A stretch of 64,000 nt of DNA from Haloplanus sp. GDY1 (GTDB lineage Archaea > Halobacteriota > Halobacteria > Halobacteriales > Haloferacaceae), in NCBI RefSeq assembly GCF_023703775.1, contig NZ_CP098514.1:1178001-1242000 (forward strand). Direction: 5' to 3'. How positions within the stretch are numbered: the stretch's first letter is position 1; the number at the start of each line of letters is the position of its first letter. Made by a program: the position numbers and the translations under genes. Shown piece after piece: positions 50,934-56,577 of the stretch. The notes beneath the pieces are model-generated. The model was not told where the DNA came from. It searched no databases and saw only the letters and a list, made by a program, of their open reading frames with translations.

Positions 50934-51793
50934 GTTCCAACGTTCGATTCACCGACTTCAAGTCCGACGCACAGCCGACCTGGTGTCCCGGATGCGGCGA
51001 CTTCGGGACGATGAACGGCATGATGAAGGCGCTGGCCGAGACCGGCAACACCCCCGACGAGACGTTCGTCGTCGCCGGCATCGGCTGTTCCGGCAAGATC
51101 GGGACGTACATGCGCTCCTACGCCATCCACGGCGTCCACGGGCGCGCGCTCCCCGTGGGGACGGGCGTCAAACTCGCCAACCCCGACATCGAGGTGATGG
51201 TCGCGGGCGGCGACGGCGACGGCTACTCCATCGGCGCGGGCCACTTCATCCACGCCGTCCGCCGGAACGTCGACATGACCTACGTCGTCATGGACAACCG
51301 CATCTACGGGCTGACCAAGGGCCAGGCCTCGCCGACCAGTCGCGAGGACTTCGAGACGTCGACGACGCCCGAGGGGCCACAGCAACCGCCCGTGAACCCG
51401 CTCGCCCTGGCGCTCGCGGCCAGCGGGACCTTCATCGCGCAGTCGTTCTCGACGGACGCCCAGCGTCACGCCGAAATCGTCAAGCAGGCCGTCGAACACG
51501 ACGGCTTCGGCTTCGTCAACGTGTTCTCCCCCTGCGTGACGTTCAACGACGTCGACACCTACGACTACTTCCGGGACCACATCGTCGATCTGCAGGATGC
51601 GGACCACGATCCGACGAGCTACGAGGACGCCCGCTCGCGCATCCTCGACCGCGACAAGGAGTACCAGGGCGTCCTCTACCGGGACGAGGAGTCGGTGCCC
51701 TACGAGCGGAGCCACGGCGTCGACGCGGACATGTCGGACATCCCCGACGGCGCTCCCGAGGACGCGATGGATCTGGTCCGCGAGTTCTACTGA
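50930..51793 (+). CDS. korB: 2-oxoacid:ferredoxin oxidoreductase subunit beta (KorB-like)
   Basis: A 287-residue subunit that binds thiamine diphosphate and one 4Fe-4S cluster. Candidate cluster cysteines are C19 and C22 (CPGCG), C53 (GCSGKIG) and one near FSPCVTF. The TPP motif GDGDGYSIG (about 91-99) and the Asn in MDNRIYGLTKG follow. The start overlaps korA (ATGA). It forms the catalytic part of the complex with KorA and passes electrons to ferredoxin. Confidence 0.95.
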   Translation: MSSNVRFTDFKSDAQPTWCPGCGDFGTMNGMMKALAETGNTPDETFVVAGIGCSGKIGTYMRSYAIHGVHGRALPVGTGVKLANPDIEVMVAGGDGDGYSIGAGHFIHAVRRNVDMTYVVMDNRIYGLTKGQASPTSREDFETSTTPEGPQQPPVNPLALALAASGTFIAQSFSTDAQRHAEIVKQAVEHDGFGFVNVFSPCVTFNDVDTYDYFRDHIVDLQDADHDPTSYEDARSRILDRDKEYQGVLYRDEESVPYERSHGVDADMSDIPDGAPEDAMDLVREFY

Positions 51794-51902
51794 TCGGCTC
51801 CGGGGCCGACGTTCTCGGGCCGCGCCGGCGAGGGCGTTCGATACGGTCCGCCTTTCGACGGCCGCAAAAAAAGTTAAGCGGCGGTGTGACTGGCTTACGA
51901 CC

Positions 51903-54900
51903 GTGTCTCACTTCCGGGACCCGATCGTCGGGATCGACCCTGGCACCTCGACGACCCGCTGTGCCGTCTACGACGGGGAACGGCCACGGATCGTCCCGAA
52001 CGGGGCCGGCCGCGAGGCGACCCCCACCGTCGTCTCCGTCGCCGAGGACGGAACGTTGGTGGCCGGCACGCGCGCGGCCGACCGCACGACCACACATCCC
52101 GAGCGGACGGTCACCGACCTCGTCGACCGCCTCCGGACGGGCGAACCGGTCGTCGTGGACGGCGTGTCGTACCCGCCGGAGACGCTGGCCGCGGCCGTCA
52201 TCTCGCGGGCCCTTCCCGACGGCGCGGGCGACCTGGAGAAGTGTGTCCTCACCGCGCCCAACGGCGCCACGAGGGCGTACCGTCGTCGACTTCGGGACGC
52301 CGCCTCCATCTTGGAGTTCTCCGTCGAGCGCACCGTCCACTCGACGGCGGCCGCCGCCATGGCCTACGGGTTCGACCGGGACGGCGAGCGGACCGTCCTC
52401 GTCTGTGACTTCGGCGGCGGGACCGCCGACGTCTCGGTGCTCGACATCGACGGCGGCGTCTACCACGTCTTCGCGACCGACGGGGTCCCCGATTTCGGCG
52501 GCGCGGATTTGGACGCCGCCGTCGCCGACCACCTCGCGTCGGCGTTCGCGGACGACCACGGCGTCGACCTTCGGTCGGACCCCCAGGCTCACCGCCGACT
52601 GATCGAGGCGGCCGCGGACGCACGCGCCGATCTCTCTACCCGCGAGCGGACCCGTATCCAACTCCCGGCCGTCACCGTCACCGACGACGGTCCCCTCGAC
52701 CTCGATACCTCCCTGTCCAGTTCGGCGTTCGAGTCGATCGTCGACGACGTGATCGACCGAATCGAGGCCCCCATCGACCGCGTTCTCGACGCGGCCGCCG
52801 TCGACGGTGTCGACGACGTGGTGCTCGCGGGGGACGCGACGCGCACGCCGGCGGTCCGTGAACGCATCGAGGCGGTCACCGAGACGGTGCCCACGACGAC
52901 CGCCGATCCCGGCACGGCCGCGGCGCTCGGCGCGGCGATCCAGGGCGGCGTCCTCTCCGGACACGTCGACGACGTCGTTCTGCTCGATGCCCTCTTTCGC
53001 TCCCTCGGCGTGGCCGTCGACGGCGACGGGTTCGAACCGCTCGTCCGGGCGGATACGACCGTTCCCACCGAGGCGTCCAAGACGTTCACGACGACGGCCG
53101 ACGAACAGTCCGGCGTTCGCGTCCGGGTTCGCGAGGGTGGGTCCGCCCCCGACGGCGGCACCGTCCTCGGCGACGTGGCGCTGACGGACCTCCCGGCCGC
53201 ACCCGCCGGTGACCCCCGAATCGAGGTGACGCTCTCGATCGACGAACGGCGGATCGTCAACGCCACCGCGGCGTGTGAGGAGACGGGAGAGGAAGCCGAG
53301 GCCACGTTCGACGCCCGTCGGCGTCTGACTCCCGCAGCGGTGGACTGGAGTCGACGGGTGCTGTTCAGGGTGGGGTCGCCCGATTCCGAGAGTCCGGTGC
53401 GGATCGCCGCCGCTCGTCCGGACCGACTCCTCGAACCGAGAACCGGGTCGGACGATCCGGCCGACTACCCCCCGATCACCAGCCCCGTCCTCCCCCACGG
53501 CGTCGGTTTGGAGACGGTCGGCGACGGCGACGGCCCCGGCTTCGAACGCCTCCTCGATGCGGGGACCTCGCTCCCCGCCCAGGCGTCGCGGACGTTCACC
53601 ACCGCGACGGACGACCAGGAGTCGGTCCGCGTCCGCGTCCTGCGCGAGGGCACGTCGGACACCCCGGAACCGGTCGGCGAGGTCACGGTTCGGGACCTCC
53701 CATCGGCGCCGGCAGGGAACCCGGACATCGCGGTCGATGTCGCCGTGGACGCGACGGGGACGCTGACGGTATCGGCGACGGTCGACGACGCCGACGACCC
53801 CGCGGCGTCGACCGAGTTCGACCTGTTCGACGGGAGGGCTGTGACGGGGCGCGACGACCCGTCCGGCGGCGACGACGGTCCCGAACTCCTCGACCGATCG
53901 CCGACGGCGGCGGAAATCGAGTGTTTGCTCGACGTGCGCGACGACCTCTCGCGGGCGCTCGACGCCGACGCCGACGACCCGGAACCGGTGCAGGCTGGGC
54001 TGCGGGCGACCCGGAAGAAGCTCGACCGCCTGACCGACGACGAACTCACCGCGTCGATCGCCGAGGACGCCCTCGCCGTCGCCGACGATCTCGACCGGGC
54101 CGTCGGCGGCGATCCGGGCACGACCGATCGACTCCGGCGGTGGATCCGGTCCACGCGGCGGCGGGTGGAGAGCGCGCTCGACGCGGCCGACGCGACCCTC
54201 CTCGCTCCCGACCCGGGCGAGTCGATCGACCCCGACCGGCACAGCGTCGTCGCGCGCGTCGAGTCGGAGCGACCGGCCGACGCAGTGGTCGACGTGCGGG
54301 CGACGGGATACGCGCGGGCGGGCCGGGTCGAGCGGCCGGCGAAGGTGACCGTGAGCGACGGTCCGGGAGGGGCGTCGCTCGCCGGTCCCCCCGACGCGAT
54401 TCCCGGACGTCCCGACGTCTCGGTCGACCACGGCGCGCTCTCCCGCGGCGACCGGATCGGCAGCGGCGGCCGGGCCGACGTGTTCGAGGCCACCGTCCCG
54501 TCGCCCGACGGTCCCGTGACCGTCGCGCTCAAGGAGCCCCGGTTCTCGGGGACGCTCCACGCGGACGTCGGCGAGCGCTTCGTCGACGAGGCGAGACGGT
54601 GGGCGCGCCTGGACGACCACGACCACGTCGTCGGCGTCGTCGACTGGGGTGCCGAACCGCTCCCCTGGATCGCCATGGAGTACATGGACGGGGGAACGCT
54701 CGACGAACGCGCCGGCGACGTGTCCGTGCCCCAGGCACTCTGGACGGCACTGGCGGTCGCTCGCGGCGTCAGTCACGCCAACAAGCGCGGCGTCGCCCAC
54801 CTCGATCTGAAGCCGGAGAACGTCCTCTTTCGCTCGGTCGACGGCGCCTGGGACGTGCCGAAGGTGGCGGACTGGGGCCTCTCCAGACACCTCCTCGACC

Positions 54901-55250
54901 GCTCGTCGGGCGCGAGCGGCTACACCCCGACCTACGCCGCCCCCGAGCAACTCGACGGCGACGGATCGGTCGACGCTACCACCGACGTCTACCAACTGGG
55001 AGCCGTCTGCTACGAACTGTTCACCGGGCGGCCGCCGTTCGAGGGCGACGGCCCGGGCGACGTCGTCGAGCAGGTCCGAACGTCGACGCCGCCGCCCCCC
55101 AGCGACGTCGCGTCGGTCCCCGATACCGTCGACGACGTCCTCCTGACGGCCCTCGCCACCGACCCCGCGGACCGGTACGAGTCGACGCTCTACCTCCGCG
55201 ACGCCCTCCGGGACGCGTTCGAGTCGACGGTCGGCCCGCTGGAGCGGTGA
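51903..55250 (+). CDS. Hsp70-Ser/Thr protein kinase fusion protein
   Basis: A 1115-residue multidomain protein. Residues 1-355 are an Hsp70 nucleotide-binding domain: phosphate-1 GIDPGTSTT (10-18), phosphate-2 CDFGGGTADVSVLDI (168-182) and adenosine motif AGDATRTP (309-316). Then come two Hsp70 beta-substrate-binding domains (about 357-460 and 525-645) and a helical segment (about 665-740). The kinase domain spans about 845-1110: glycine loop IGSGGRADVFEA, K877, HLDLKPEN with D968, D990 in DWG, and APE near 1013. The kinase looks active. DnaK K70 and E171 are replaced by A59 and S147. No membrane segment is seen. The GTG at 51903 is followed at once by the Hsp70 core; an A-rich box lies 25-38 bases upstream. 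Confidence 0.92.
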   Translation: MSHFRDPIVGIDPGTSTTRCAVYDGERPRIVPNGAGREATPTVVSVAEDGTLVAGTRAADRTTTHPERTVTDLVDRLRTGEPVVVDGVSYPPETLAAAVISRALPDGAGDLEKCVLTAPNGATRAYRRRLRDAASILEFSVERTVHSTAAAAMAYGFDRDGERTVLVCDFGGGTADVSVLDIDGGVYHVFATDGVPDFGGADLDAAVADHLASAFADDHGVDLRSDPQAHRRLIEAAADARADLSTRERTRIQLPAVTVTDDGPLDLDTSLSSSAFESIVDDVIDRIEAPIDRVLDAAAVDGVDDVVLAGDATRTPAVRERIEAVTETVPTTTADPGTAAALGAAIQGGVLSGHVDDVVLLDALFRSLGVAVDGDGFEPLVRADTTVPTEASKTFTTTADEQSGVRVRVREGGSAPDGGTVLGDVALTDLPAAPAGDPRIEVTLSIDERRIVNATAACEETGEEAEATFDARRRLTPAAVDWSRRVLFRVGSPDSESPVRIAAARPDRLLEPRTGSDDPADYPPITSPVLPHGVGLETVGDGDGPGFERLLDAGTSLPAQASRTFTTATDDQESVRVRVLREGTSDTPEPVGEVTVRDLPSAPAGNPDIAVDVAVDATGTLTVSATVDDADDPAASTEFDLFDGRAVTGRDDPSGGDDGPELLDRSPTAAEIECLLDVRDDLSRALDADADDPEPVQAGLRATRKKLDRLTDDELTASIAEDALAVADDLDRAVGGDPGTTDRLRRWIRSTRRRVESALDAADATLLAPDPGESIDPDRHSVVARVESERPADAVVDVRATGYARAGRVERPAKVTVSDGPGGASLAGPPDAIPGRPDVSVDHGALSRGDRIGSGGRADVFEATVPSPDGPVTVALKEPRFSGTLHADVGERFVDEARRWARLDDHDHVVGVVDWGAEPLPWIAMEYMDGGTLDERAGDVSVPQALWTALAVARGVSHANKRGVAHLDLKPENVLFRSVDGAWDVPKVADWGLSRHLLDRSSGASGYTPTYAAPEQLDGDGSVDATTDVYQLGAVCYELFTGRPPFEGDGPGDVVEQVRTSTPPPPSDVASVPDTVDDVLLTALATDPADRYESTLYLRDALRDAFESTVGPLER

Positions 55251-55259
55251 GCGGCGGCA

Positions 55260-55463
55260 TCACGCGAGGAGGACGGGTATCGCGAGCGACGTCAGCGGGA
55301 GTGGGATCGCCCCCGTGACCCACAGGACGGCCGCGAAGGCCGCCACCCCGAGGGCGTAGCCGGCGGCGGGCGAGAGCGCGGCGACCGGTCCGGCGGCGTG
55401 CCCGACACCGACCGCCACGAGGAGGGCGGCCGCGAGGTACCCGCCCTCGCGACGCGTCGTCAT
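55260..55463 (-). pseudogene. Apparent N-terminal fragment of an SLC13-type anion transporter
   Basis: A 67-residue open frame with two membrane helices (about 8-27 and 33-58). The stretch LWVTGAIPLPLTSLAIPVLLA matches the beginning of SLC13/DASS transporters, which read (W/L)WxTEAIPLPxT. In that family the sequence would continue for another 400-plus residues, but a TGA stop follows directly and the Hsp70-kinase gene ends nine bases beyond, on the opposite strand. It therefore looks like the cut-off head of a larger gene, or possibly a stand-alone small membrane protein. The stop is intact, so translation of the short peptide may still occur. Confidence 0.5.
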
Positions 55464-55497
55464 CTACCCTCCTCCCGCGCGTCGACACCGTCGTGCA

Positions 55498-55523
55498 TCG
55501 GTGGCCGACGCGTCGGCCACCGA
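55498..55523. repeat. 26-base perfect palindrome
   Basis: A 26-base perfect palindrome with no spacer, made from TCGGTGGCCGACG and its exact complement. It lies between the VIT1-like gene and the transporter fragment, both leftward, 35 bases upstream of the fragment's start. It is directly followed on the plus strand by CAAAAAT. It could be an operator, a terminator hairpin or a recombination site. Perfect symmetry of this length is well above what GC-rich DNA gives by chance in such a short gap. Confidence 0.85.
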
Positions 55524-55555
55524 CAAAAATCCGTCCCCGGACCGCCGGTCGGCGC

Positions 55556-56137
55556 TTACCCCGGCAGGACGAGGTTGAGGAGGGCGACCACGAGGCCCGC
55601 GAGCCCCATCCGCACGCCCGCGACGTAGGGGTTCAGGCCCGCGACGGTTCCCATGTACGCGCCGAAGGTAAAGAGGGTCGTCACGCCGACGCCGACGGCC
55701 GCGACGGTGCTCTCGAACATCGTCAGCGTCGACCCTTCGAGGAGGTACGGGAGCAGGGGGAGCACGATCCCGACCAGCGGCCCCAGCCCGCTGGTGACGG
55801 CGCTGATCGCCCGGGCGTCCCGCATCCGTCGGGTCACTCGCGTGTCGTCGAGGTCGGTGAGCATCGCGCGTTCGATGCTCGCGACCTGCGCCCGGCGTTC
55901 GGCGCGTTCGATCTCCCAGACGCTCCAGACGCCGGAGGTACACAGGCCGACCGCCGCCCCGAGGCCGATGGCGACGACGGTCACCCCCTCGTCGATCCCC
56001 GAGAGGTACGCCCCCACGGTGACGCCGATGCTGGTGAGGGTGCCGTCGAAGCCGTTCGAGATGAAGTAGCGGCGGGAGATCGACCGCACCTCGTCGTGGG
56101 CGAGCGCCGACCGGAGGGAGCGCAGTCGGTCGCGCAC
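55556..56137 (-). CDS. VIT1/CCC1-family membrane transporter
   Basis: A 193-residue membrane protein with about five helices. The N-terminal RYFISNGFDGTLTSIGVTVGAYLSG (about 22-46) matches the start of VIT1/CCC1-like iron or manganese transporters. The cytoplasmic charged loop (about 74-107) contains the Glu-rich segment ERAERRAQVASIERAMLTDLDD. The GTG at 56137 begins one base after the DUF211 stop. A longer ATG start at 56182 would overlap DUF211 by 44 bases and is not preferred. The VIT1-DUF211 pairing recurs in haloarchaea. Confidence 0.8.
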   Translation of the reverse strand: MRDRLRSLRSALAHDEVRSISRRYFISNGFDGTLTSIGVTVGAYLSGIDEGVTVVAIGLGAAVGLCTSGVWSVWEIERAERRAQVASIERAMLTDLDDTRVTRRMRDARAISAVTSGLGPLVGIVLPLLPYLLEGSTLTMFESTVAAVGVGVTTLFTFGAYMGTVAGLNPYVAGVRMGLAGLVVALLNLVLPG

Positions 56138-56138
56138 G

Positions 56139-56426
56139 TCAGTCCTGCGGGGTCCGGACCTCCTCGACCAGATACTCCCCACACACCACCTGGTCGACGG
56201 AGTGGACGGATCCGCCGAGGCGTTCGACTTCGTCGTCGACGCGCTCGACCGCGATGTCCGATCCCTCCACCGTGAGCTTCAGGGTCTGTACCTCGGCGTC
56301 GGTCTCCACGAGCAGCGCGTTGACGGCCTCGATCCCGTCGAGGTCGGCGAGCCGGCTGGCCACCTCGACCGTCGACGGCTGGTGGGGTTTCAACACGTCG
56401 AGGACGACGCGACGGACTGGTGCCAT
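56139..56426 (-). CDS. DUF211 family protein
   Basis: A 95-residue protein of the archaeal DUF211 family, a ferredoxin-like fold without known enzyme function. Typical motifs are VRRVVLDVLKPHQPSTVEVASRLADLDGIEAVN (about 4-36) and the ending SVHSVDQVVCGEYLVEE. It may bind metal ions or nucleotides; a structural homolog forms metal-stabilised oligomers. It precedes the VIT1-like transporter by one base, so a metal link is likely. Confidence 0.9.
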   Translation of the reverse strand: MAPVRRVVLDVLKPHQPSTVEVASRLADLDGIEAVNALLVETDAEVQTLKLTVEGSDIAVERVDDEVERLGGSVHSVDQVVCGEYLVEEVRTPQD

Positions 56427-56475
56427 CGGTCCCCCGTACCGGACGCGCCGGCCTAAGTGTACCGACGGTGACGGA

Positions 56476-56577
56476 TCAGACGAAGAGAAACGAGGGGAGA
56501 TAGAGCGCGAGACAGAGGAGGGCGGCGCGGCGGTCGATCCCGCGCCGGACGTACATGATCCCGAGTTCGACCAGCAT
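56476..56577 (-). CDS. Small one-helix membrane peptide (33 residues)
   Basis: A 33-residue open frame with ATG at 56577 (a GTG codon stands just before it). A short basic segment (MYVRRGIDRR) is followed by a hydrophobic helix (AALLCLALYLPSFLFV) that ends at the stop. It lies in a 248-base gap between DUF211 and the geranylgeranyl reductase gene. Size and hydrophobicity suit a small membrane protein, but no homology can be offered. Confidence 0.35.
   Translation of the reverse strand: MLVELGIMYVRRGIDRRAALLCLALYLPSFLFV

Follow-up and report, generated by a model that had tools for sequence, protein, structure and literature searches.

We analyzed a 64,000-nucleotide stretch of the Haloplanus sp. 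GDY1 genome (contig NZ_CP098514.1, positions 1,178,001 to 1,242,000; hereafter the window) and found that one of its genes encodes, in a single chain, an Hsp70 nucleotide-binding domain (NBD), two Hsp70 beta-type substrate-binding domains (SBD-beta, here SBD1 and SBD2), a GrpE module and a Hanks-type Ser/Thr kinase. Judged from its sequence, we hold with about as much belief as doubt that this protein is a peptide-responsive sensor kinase, that is, a Hanks-type kinase with an input module derived from haloarchaeal DnaK and GrpE. An earlier note on the window had described the gene as an intact fusion of an Hsp70 with duplicated substrate-binding domains, a helical linker and a kinase. The intact frame, the fusion and the duplication were all confirmed; the linker turned out to be GrpE. 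The idea of a peptide-sensing kinase put forward in that note appears reasonable, because this is a genuine Hsp70-kinase fusion whose duplicated SBDs are conserved between species. The gene and its parts, all on the forward strand of the window, are as follows.

51903 to 55250 (+): whole fusion gene, 1115 residues, GTG start; translated without a stop, with orthologues at L020 and L021 and the locus kept in three species
51921 to 52958 (+): Hsp70 NBD, residues 7-352, catalytically degenerate (Pfam HSP70, residue map, DnaK fold)
52968 to 52988 (+): conserved Hsp70 interdomain linker DDVVLLD, residues 356-362 (alignment)
52989 to 53312 (+): SBD1, residues 363-470, with no helical lid after it (alignment, model)
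53490 to 53846 (+): SBD2, residues 530-648, 43% identical to SBD1 in a self-match
53907 to 54035 (+): GrpE bundle hairpin copy 1, two helices, residues 669-711
54051 to 54185 (+): GrpE bundle hairpin copy 2, two helices, residues 717-761
54192 to 54362 (+): GrpE beta-wing, residues 764-820 (Pfam GrpE, wing model, Foldseek)
54438 to 55226 (+): Hanks-type Ser/Thr kinase, residues 846-1108 (K877, D968, K970, N973, D990 and APE; HLD replaces HRD)

The domain search proposed in the earlier note was run with Pfam on the 1115-residue protein and gave matches to HSP70 in three stretches (E = 1.3e-111), to GrpE at residues 716-818 (E = 1.8e-15) and to Pkinase at residues 848-1094 (E = 5e-28), all three exceeding the curated cut-offs. 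The NCBIfam models for DnaK, GrpE and PknB-type kinases matched the same regions. A full-length AlphaFold2 model had a mean predicted local distance difference test score (pLDDT) of 73.6 and a predicted template modelling score (pTM) of 0.39.

The GrpE module occupies residues 669-820. Using a hidden Markov model (HMM) made from the hairpins of haloarchaeal GrpEs, and a separate one for the beta-wing, we detected two hairpins in tandem, at residues 672-714 (8.8e-14) and 719-762 (2.2e-7), followed by the wing at residues 768-820 (2.4e-21). The two hairpin copies were more similar to each other than expected from 2000 shuffles (p = 0.0005) and the two orthologues had the same pattern of tandem hairpin and wing; in the fusions found in Halomicrobium (see below) hairpin copy 1 alone was recognisable by sequence. 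An AlphaFold2 model of residues 660-822, built on 20 alignment rows, reached a pLDDT of 89.8 and a pTM of 0.82 and consisted of four helices and then the wing; the same four helices were present in the full-length model. Foldseek searches of the PDB with this segment returned 11 matches at E<=1e-3, all 11 of them GrpEs. Segment residues 6-104 also aligned with single-chain four-helix bundles at about 2.5 Å, although helical bundles often match one another with Z values of this size. The Pfam GrpE match starts at position 60 of the 165 in the model, the long N-terminal helix being absent. Known GrpE has a long N-terminal helix and forms its four-helix bundle by dimerisation (PMC10803776), and one beta-domain inserts into the NBD and opens it (PMC4753570). 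This wing, the element with which GrpE contacts the Hsp70 NBD, is recognised in the fusion by both sequence and fold; its contact with the NBD is putative. We infer that GrpE is probably present in cis as a single chain with a single wing, in which tandem hairpins would replace the dimer bundle.

The Hsp70 half retains the fold of DnaK but not its catalytic residues. In structure comparisons of the model, DnaK structures matched NBD plus SBD1 with Z of about 40, and the actin-like NBD keeps its phosphate loops (D8 and GGG 196-198). Residues are numbered here as in E. coli DnaK, whose landmark residues were checked; the roles of the catalytic and relay residues follow PMC4595643. The catalytic pair K70/E171 is V/S in the window gene, V/A in the two orthologues and K/D in Halomicrobium; K70A is an ATPase mutant of DnaK (PMC4109909). 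In the alignment with E. coli DnaK the relay residues Y145 and D148 were lost in all six fusions, and F146 likewise as judged by eye, so that of the relay P143/Y145/F146/D148/R151 only P143 and R151 are kept, together with R167, D8, GGG 196-198 and the interdomain linker. A normal chaperone cycle is unlikely, since catalytic and allosteric residues of the Hsp70 ATPase are replaced. The peptide-pocket positions 399, 401, 426, 436 and 438 are hydrophobic or conserved in both SBD1 and SBD2. The C-terminal helical lid (SBD-alpha) was not found in the full-length model, where residues 472-527 have low confidence and form short helices only before SBD2 begins. When the NBD of each fusion clade was tested separately it branched among haloarchaeal and not bacterial DnaKs, in a placement that is poorly resolved or weakly supported.

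The residues K877, D968, N973 and D990 of the kinase stand where the earlier note had placed them, and all six fusions share the catalytic Lys, HxDxKxxN, DWG and APE without change. The kinase residues are thus intact. The arginine of HRD is a leucine (HLD) in all six fusion kinases and also in the listed paralogues of the window genome. PADLOC matches to PD-T4-6 and Mad6 span the kinase domain only. The genome encodes 11 sibling kinases, several of them linked to PQQ propellers, HEAT repeats, plastocyanin, a LamG-like domain or an FtsZ-type GTPase. The last of these, at L019:2101-4086 (-) (genome C1:370000-377500), is a fusion of a Hanks kinase with an FtsZ/tubulin-type GTPase (Tubulin 1.6e-32, FtsZ_C 3.4e-19); the kinases of the Halomicrobium fusions are most closely related to the kinase of this protein. 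Siblings at L017:2843-4435 (+), L018:2697-4724 (+) and L015:2107-4266 (+) carry a plastocyanin-type copper domain, a LamG-like domain and HEAT repeats, respectively. At L010:1246-6363 (+) lie two tandem kinase genes, each with PQQ-type propeller repeats and a membrane segment by eye, and a third is found in L014.

Within the genus, the PF00069 kinases of the three fusion-bearing species number 12, 15 and 11; one other species has 1 and eight have 0. A small PP2C phosphatase was found in precisely the three fusion species, besides a dissimilar protein in a 601-residue frame in G090. This co-occurrence of fusion, kinome and PP2C is suggestive only, because three species are few and related. The small PP2C (L145:8467-9888 (+), near C1:757216) comes right after a zinc-ribbon protein, both being conserved in the three kinome species; the latter is FHA-like by eye, an identity that Pfam did not support, and by Pfam there are no FHA readers in the genus.

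Full-length orthologues with 57-61% identity were found at the same locus in G083 and G099, so that 3 of the 12 species of the genus, including that of the window, have the fusion. A profile search of 381 Halobacteria genomes, which scored two candidates per genome and could be escaped by a very divergent fusion, added only G129, G143 and G179, all of the Halomicrobium group. The co-occurrence across haloarchaea envisaged in the earlier note was therefore not borne out, as the fusion is present in 5 of the 381 class genomes sampled and in six genomes altogether. Elsewhere in the phylum, a GrpE within a frame of more than 1000 residues was sought in 148 sampled genomes and found in the window genome only. 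A protein search of genome contigs matched bacterial Hsp70s and kinases only, none of them haloarchaeal. The Halomicrobium fusions, present in three genomes, are rearranged, with the extra SBD-beta at the N-terminus instead of after SBD1. Two of them, proteins of 1158-1160 residues at L044:11593-15069 and L045:5590-9072, are annotated only as 'nucleotide exchange factor GrpE' (WP_012807418.1 and WP_153555030.1). An assembly or frameshift artefact, the possibility that the earlier note had named as fatal to the fusion, is ruled out by the same-locus orthologues in two species and by the related Halomicrobium fusion.

In the genus the locus order is korA-korB-fusion-FAD oxidoreductase. In nine sister species the flanks are kept and the fusion is missing, with korB lying directly next to the FAD gene in G024 and G102. 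In the tree of korB plus the FAD gene, the fusion-free G024 grouped with G083, and a single vertical gain without loss in the genus was thereby rejected; at least two changes (a gain and a loss, or repeated gain) are needed. The interval between korB and the FAD oxidoreductase gene (window 51793-56555) is a hotspot of gain and loss, empty in some sister species and occupied in others by fillers that by eye resemble transporter or FAD-linked oxidase genes. A gene for a VIT-family-like membrane protein at 55556-56182 (-) separates the fusion from the FAD gene in the window; in the other 11 species this locus gave no match to it. The genes around the fusion in the window are metabolic, and no defence island was seen among them. 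Upstream of the fusion gene, the promoter-like box of its own claimed in the earlier note is indeed present.

51866 to 51877 (+): A-rich TATA-like box AAAAAAAGTTAA, about 30 nucleotides upstream of the GTG, by consensus resemblance only

The position of this box would fit a leaderless transcript of the fusion gene.

One shared origin of the fusion kinases was rejected (approximately unbiased test, p = 0.00014), those of Halomicrobium being sister to the FtsZ-linked kinase (support 100/99). The NBD tree joined both fusion types, on long branches; the GrpE tree did not join them. As the fusion kinases are not one clade and the NBD and GrpE trees disagree, there was either a replacement of the kinase or a second origin of the architecture. 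The ratio of nonsynonymous to synonymous substitution (dN/dS, Nei-Gojobori) was 0.44-0.48 for the fusion overall and 0.04-0.11 for korA/korB. By domain, the kinase had the lowest values (0.25-0.30), GrpE and the NBD lay at 0.41-0.56 and 0.45-0.52, respectively, and the SBDs spanned 0.44-0.86, indicating that constraint is strongest on the kinase and weaker on the SBDs. The proportion of synonymous differences (pS) in the fusion was 0.16 between G083 and G099, below the 0.32 of korA; between G000 and G083 it was above that of korA. This pattern hints at exchange between species.

In the mechanism that we propose, exposed peptide segments would fill the clefts of both SBD-beta domains. With ATP hydrolysis presumably impaired and an exchange factor attached, the NBD would act as a nucleotide- and peptide-dependent conformational switch and not as a cycling chaperone. 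The GrpE wing would dock in cis on the NBD and the kinase would be freed or repositioned once peptide is bound, after which it would phosphorylate targets in the cellular kinase/PP2C network. We count in favour of this mechanism the replaced catalytic and relay residues beside the retained nucleotide loops and linker, the tandem GrpE hairpins, the strong constraint on the kinase, the pairing of the same parts with different kinases in two lineages and, in the genus, the restriction of the fusion to species with a Hanks kinome and the small PP2C. Several observations weigh against it. As most relay residues are lost, communication between NBD and SBD may be gone, leaving a module that may only recruit; given the pTM of the full-length model, the overall domain arrangement and the contacts between NBD, GrpE and kinase are unpredicted; the dN/dS of about 0.4-0.9 in GrpE and SBDs could reflect relaxed constraint; and no conserved partner gene beside the fusion points to a pathway. 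With rather more doubt than belief, we extend the proposal to a soluble, self-contained unfolded-protein sensor kinase, in which a non-cycling two-cleft Hsp70 would be switched by a monomeric one-chain GrpE turned intramolecular regulator. The sensor would then be a portable signalling input, since two haloarchaeal lineages pair it with kinases of different origin.

The main rival to a sensor kinase is recruitment, because most of the relay residues are lost. Here the Hsp70/GrpE module would bind chaperone clients, or the host DnaK through the GrpE wing, and so bring along a constitutively active kinase with no signal passing from SBD to kinase. Kinases of the non-RD type generally do not need activation-loop phosphorylation, and the HLD of every fusion kinase suggests such independence; together with the loss of Y145 and D148 (and by eye F146) in all six fusions this speaks for recruitment, for which the Hsp70-recruiting J-domain-kinase chimera DNAJ-PKAc is a precedent (PMC6533061). 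However, both R167 and the interdomain linker persist, and a module that served purely as a tether would have no need of an attached exchange factor. We consider recruitment rather unlikely. Less likely still is an anti-virus or conflict kinase, in which fast-evolving SBDs would recognise viral proteins and the kinase would trigger a protective shutdown. Such a defence role is possible, resting on patchiness and fast evolution only: the fusion is present in 3 of 12 species, in a korB-FAD hotspot and on plasmids in Halomicrobium, and the SBD dN/dS rises to its upper limit given above. Some bacterial conflict systems include HSP70 and GrpE genes (PMC7159879). The PD-T4-6 matches of the kinase could be read in the same sense, but these and the Mad6 matches show only that it is a Hanks kinase, and both the metabolic neighbours and the ordinary sensory domains of the 11 sibling kinases point away from defence.

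A functional chaperone that contains its own exchange factor, and whose kinase would only autophosphorylate as tuning, would agree with the match of NBD and SBD to DnaK structures and with GrpE in cis. We regard it as improbable, as K70 and E171 are replaced, the helical lid is absent, the kinase is the most constrained domain and the genome already has an ordinary grpE-dnaK-dnaJ cluster. Least probable is a decaying fusion of little function: the overall dN/dS, far above that of korA/korB, would suit decay, but the frame is open in all six genomes, dN/dS stays below 1 and the kinase residues are invariant.

Kinase signalling in archaea has received little study, and how cells that lack an endoplasmic reticulum could report protein misfolding through Ser/Thr phosphorylation has yet to be explained there. 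The fusion offers a one-gene test case, with Hsp70, exchange factor and kinase in a single chain and hosts that have a compact kinase/phosphatase set. Its tandem GrpE hairpins also provide a clear natural experiment for asking why GrpE is dimeric and whether one wing on one chain suffices. The Halomicrobium members are currently hidden behind the annotation label 'GrpE'.

A Hanks sensor kinase is a known kind of protein; its sensory module here is, as far as we found, unprecedented. We know of no one-chain GrpE in the literature, although no search by name was made. Literature searches of open-licence papers for fusions of Hsp70, GrpE and kinase in archaea returned none, and we found no description of this combination. 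The pairing of kinase and HSP70 is nevertheless not new, because a Pirellula sp. protein with both (gi|32474490) was listed in 2005 by Krupa & Srinivasan (PMC1262709). It likewise joins a Ser/Thr kinase and HSP70 in one polypeptide, but is by its description bacterial, with the kinase first and HSP70 C-terminal and neither GrpE nor a second SBD described. The two annotated Halomicrobium proteins, each a single chain of about 1160 residues, also combine an Hsp70 NBD with two SBD-beta domains, GrpE and a kinase; they differ in their N-terminal extra SBD-beta, in a kinase of another paralogue lineage and in a second hairpin unrecognisable by sequence. With the DnaK of haloarchaea and bacteria the fusion shares the NBD, SBD-beta and conserved linker, whereas K70/E171 and the relay are replaced, the helical lid is absent and a second SBD-beta, GrpE and a kinase are added. 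With GrpE it shares the beta-wing and bundle hairpin at clear E-values; in contrast, its hairpin is duplicated in tandem (predicted to form a one-chain bundle), the long N-terminal helix is missing and the module lies in cis with its Hsp70. In DNAJ-PKAc of fibrolamellar carcinoma, too, a protein kinase is joined to a domain of the chaperone machinery, but that domain is a J-domain and not Hsp70 or GrpE, and the fusion is a tumour rearrangement and not an evolved gene (PMC6533061). The coupling logic proposed here has its likeness in eukaryotes. In their unfolded-protein response, an Hsp70 and a kinase are coupled as BiP with PERK or IRE1, and unfolded protein alters phosphorylation. There, however, Hsp70 and kinase are separate proteins across a membrane, and we claim no homology of the coupling.

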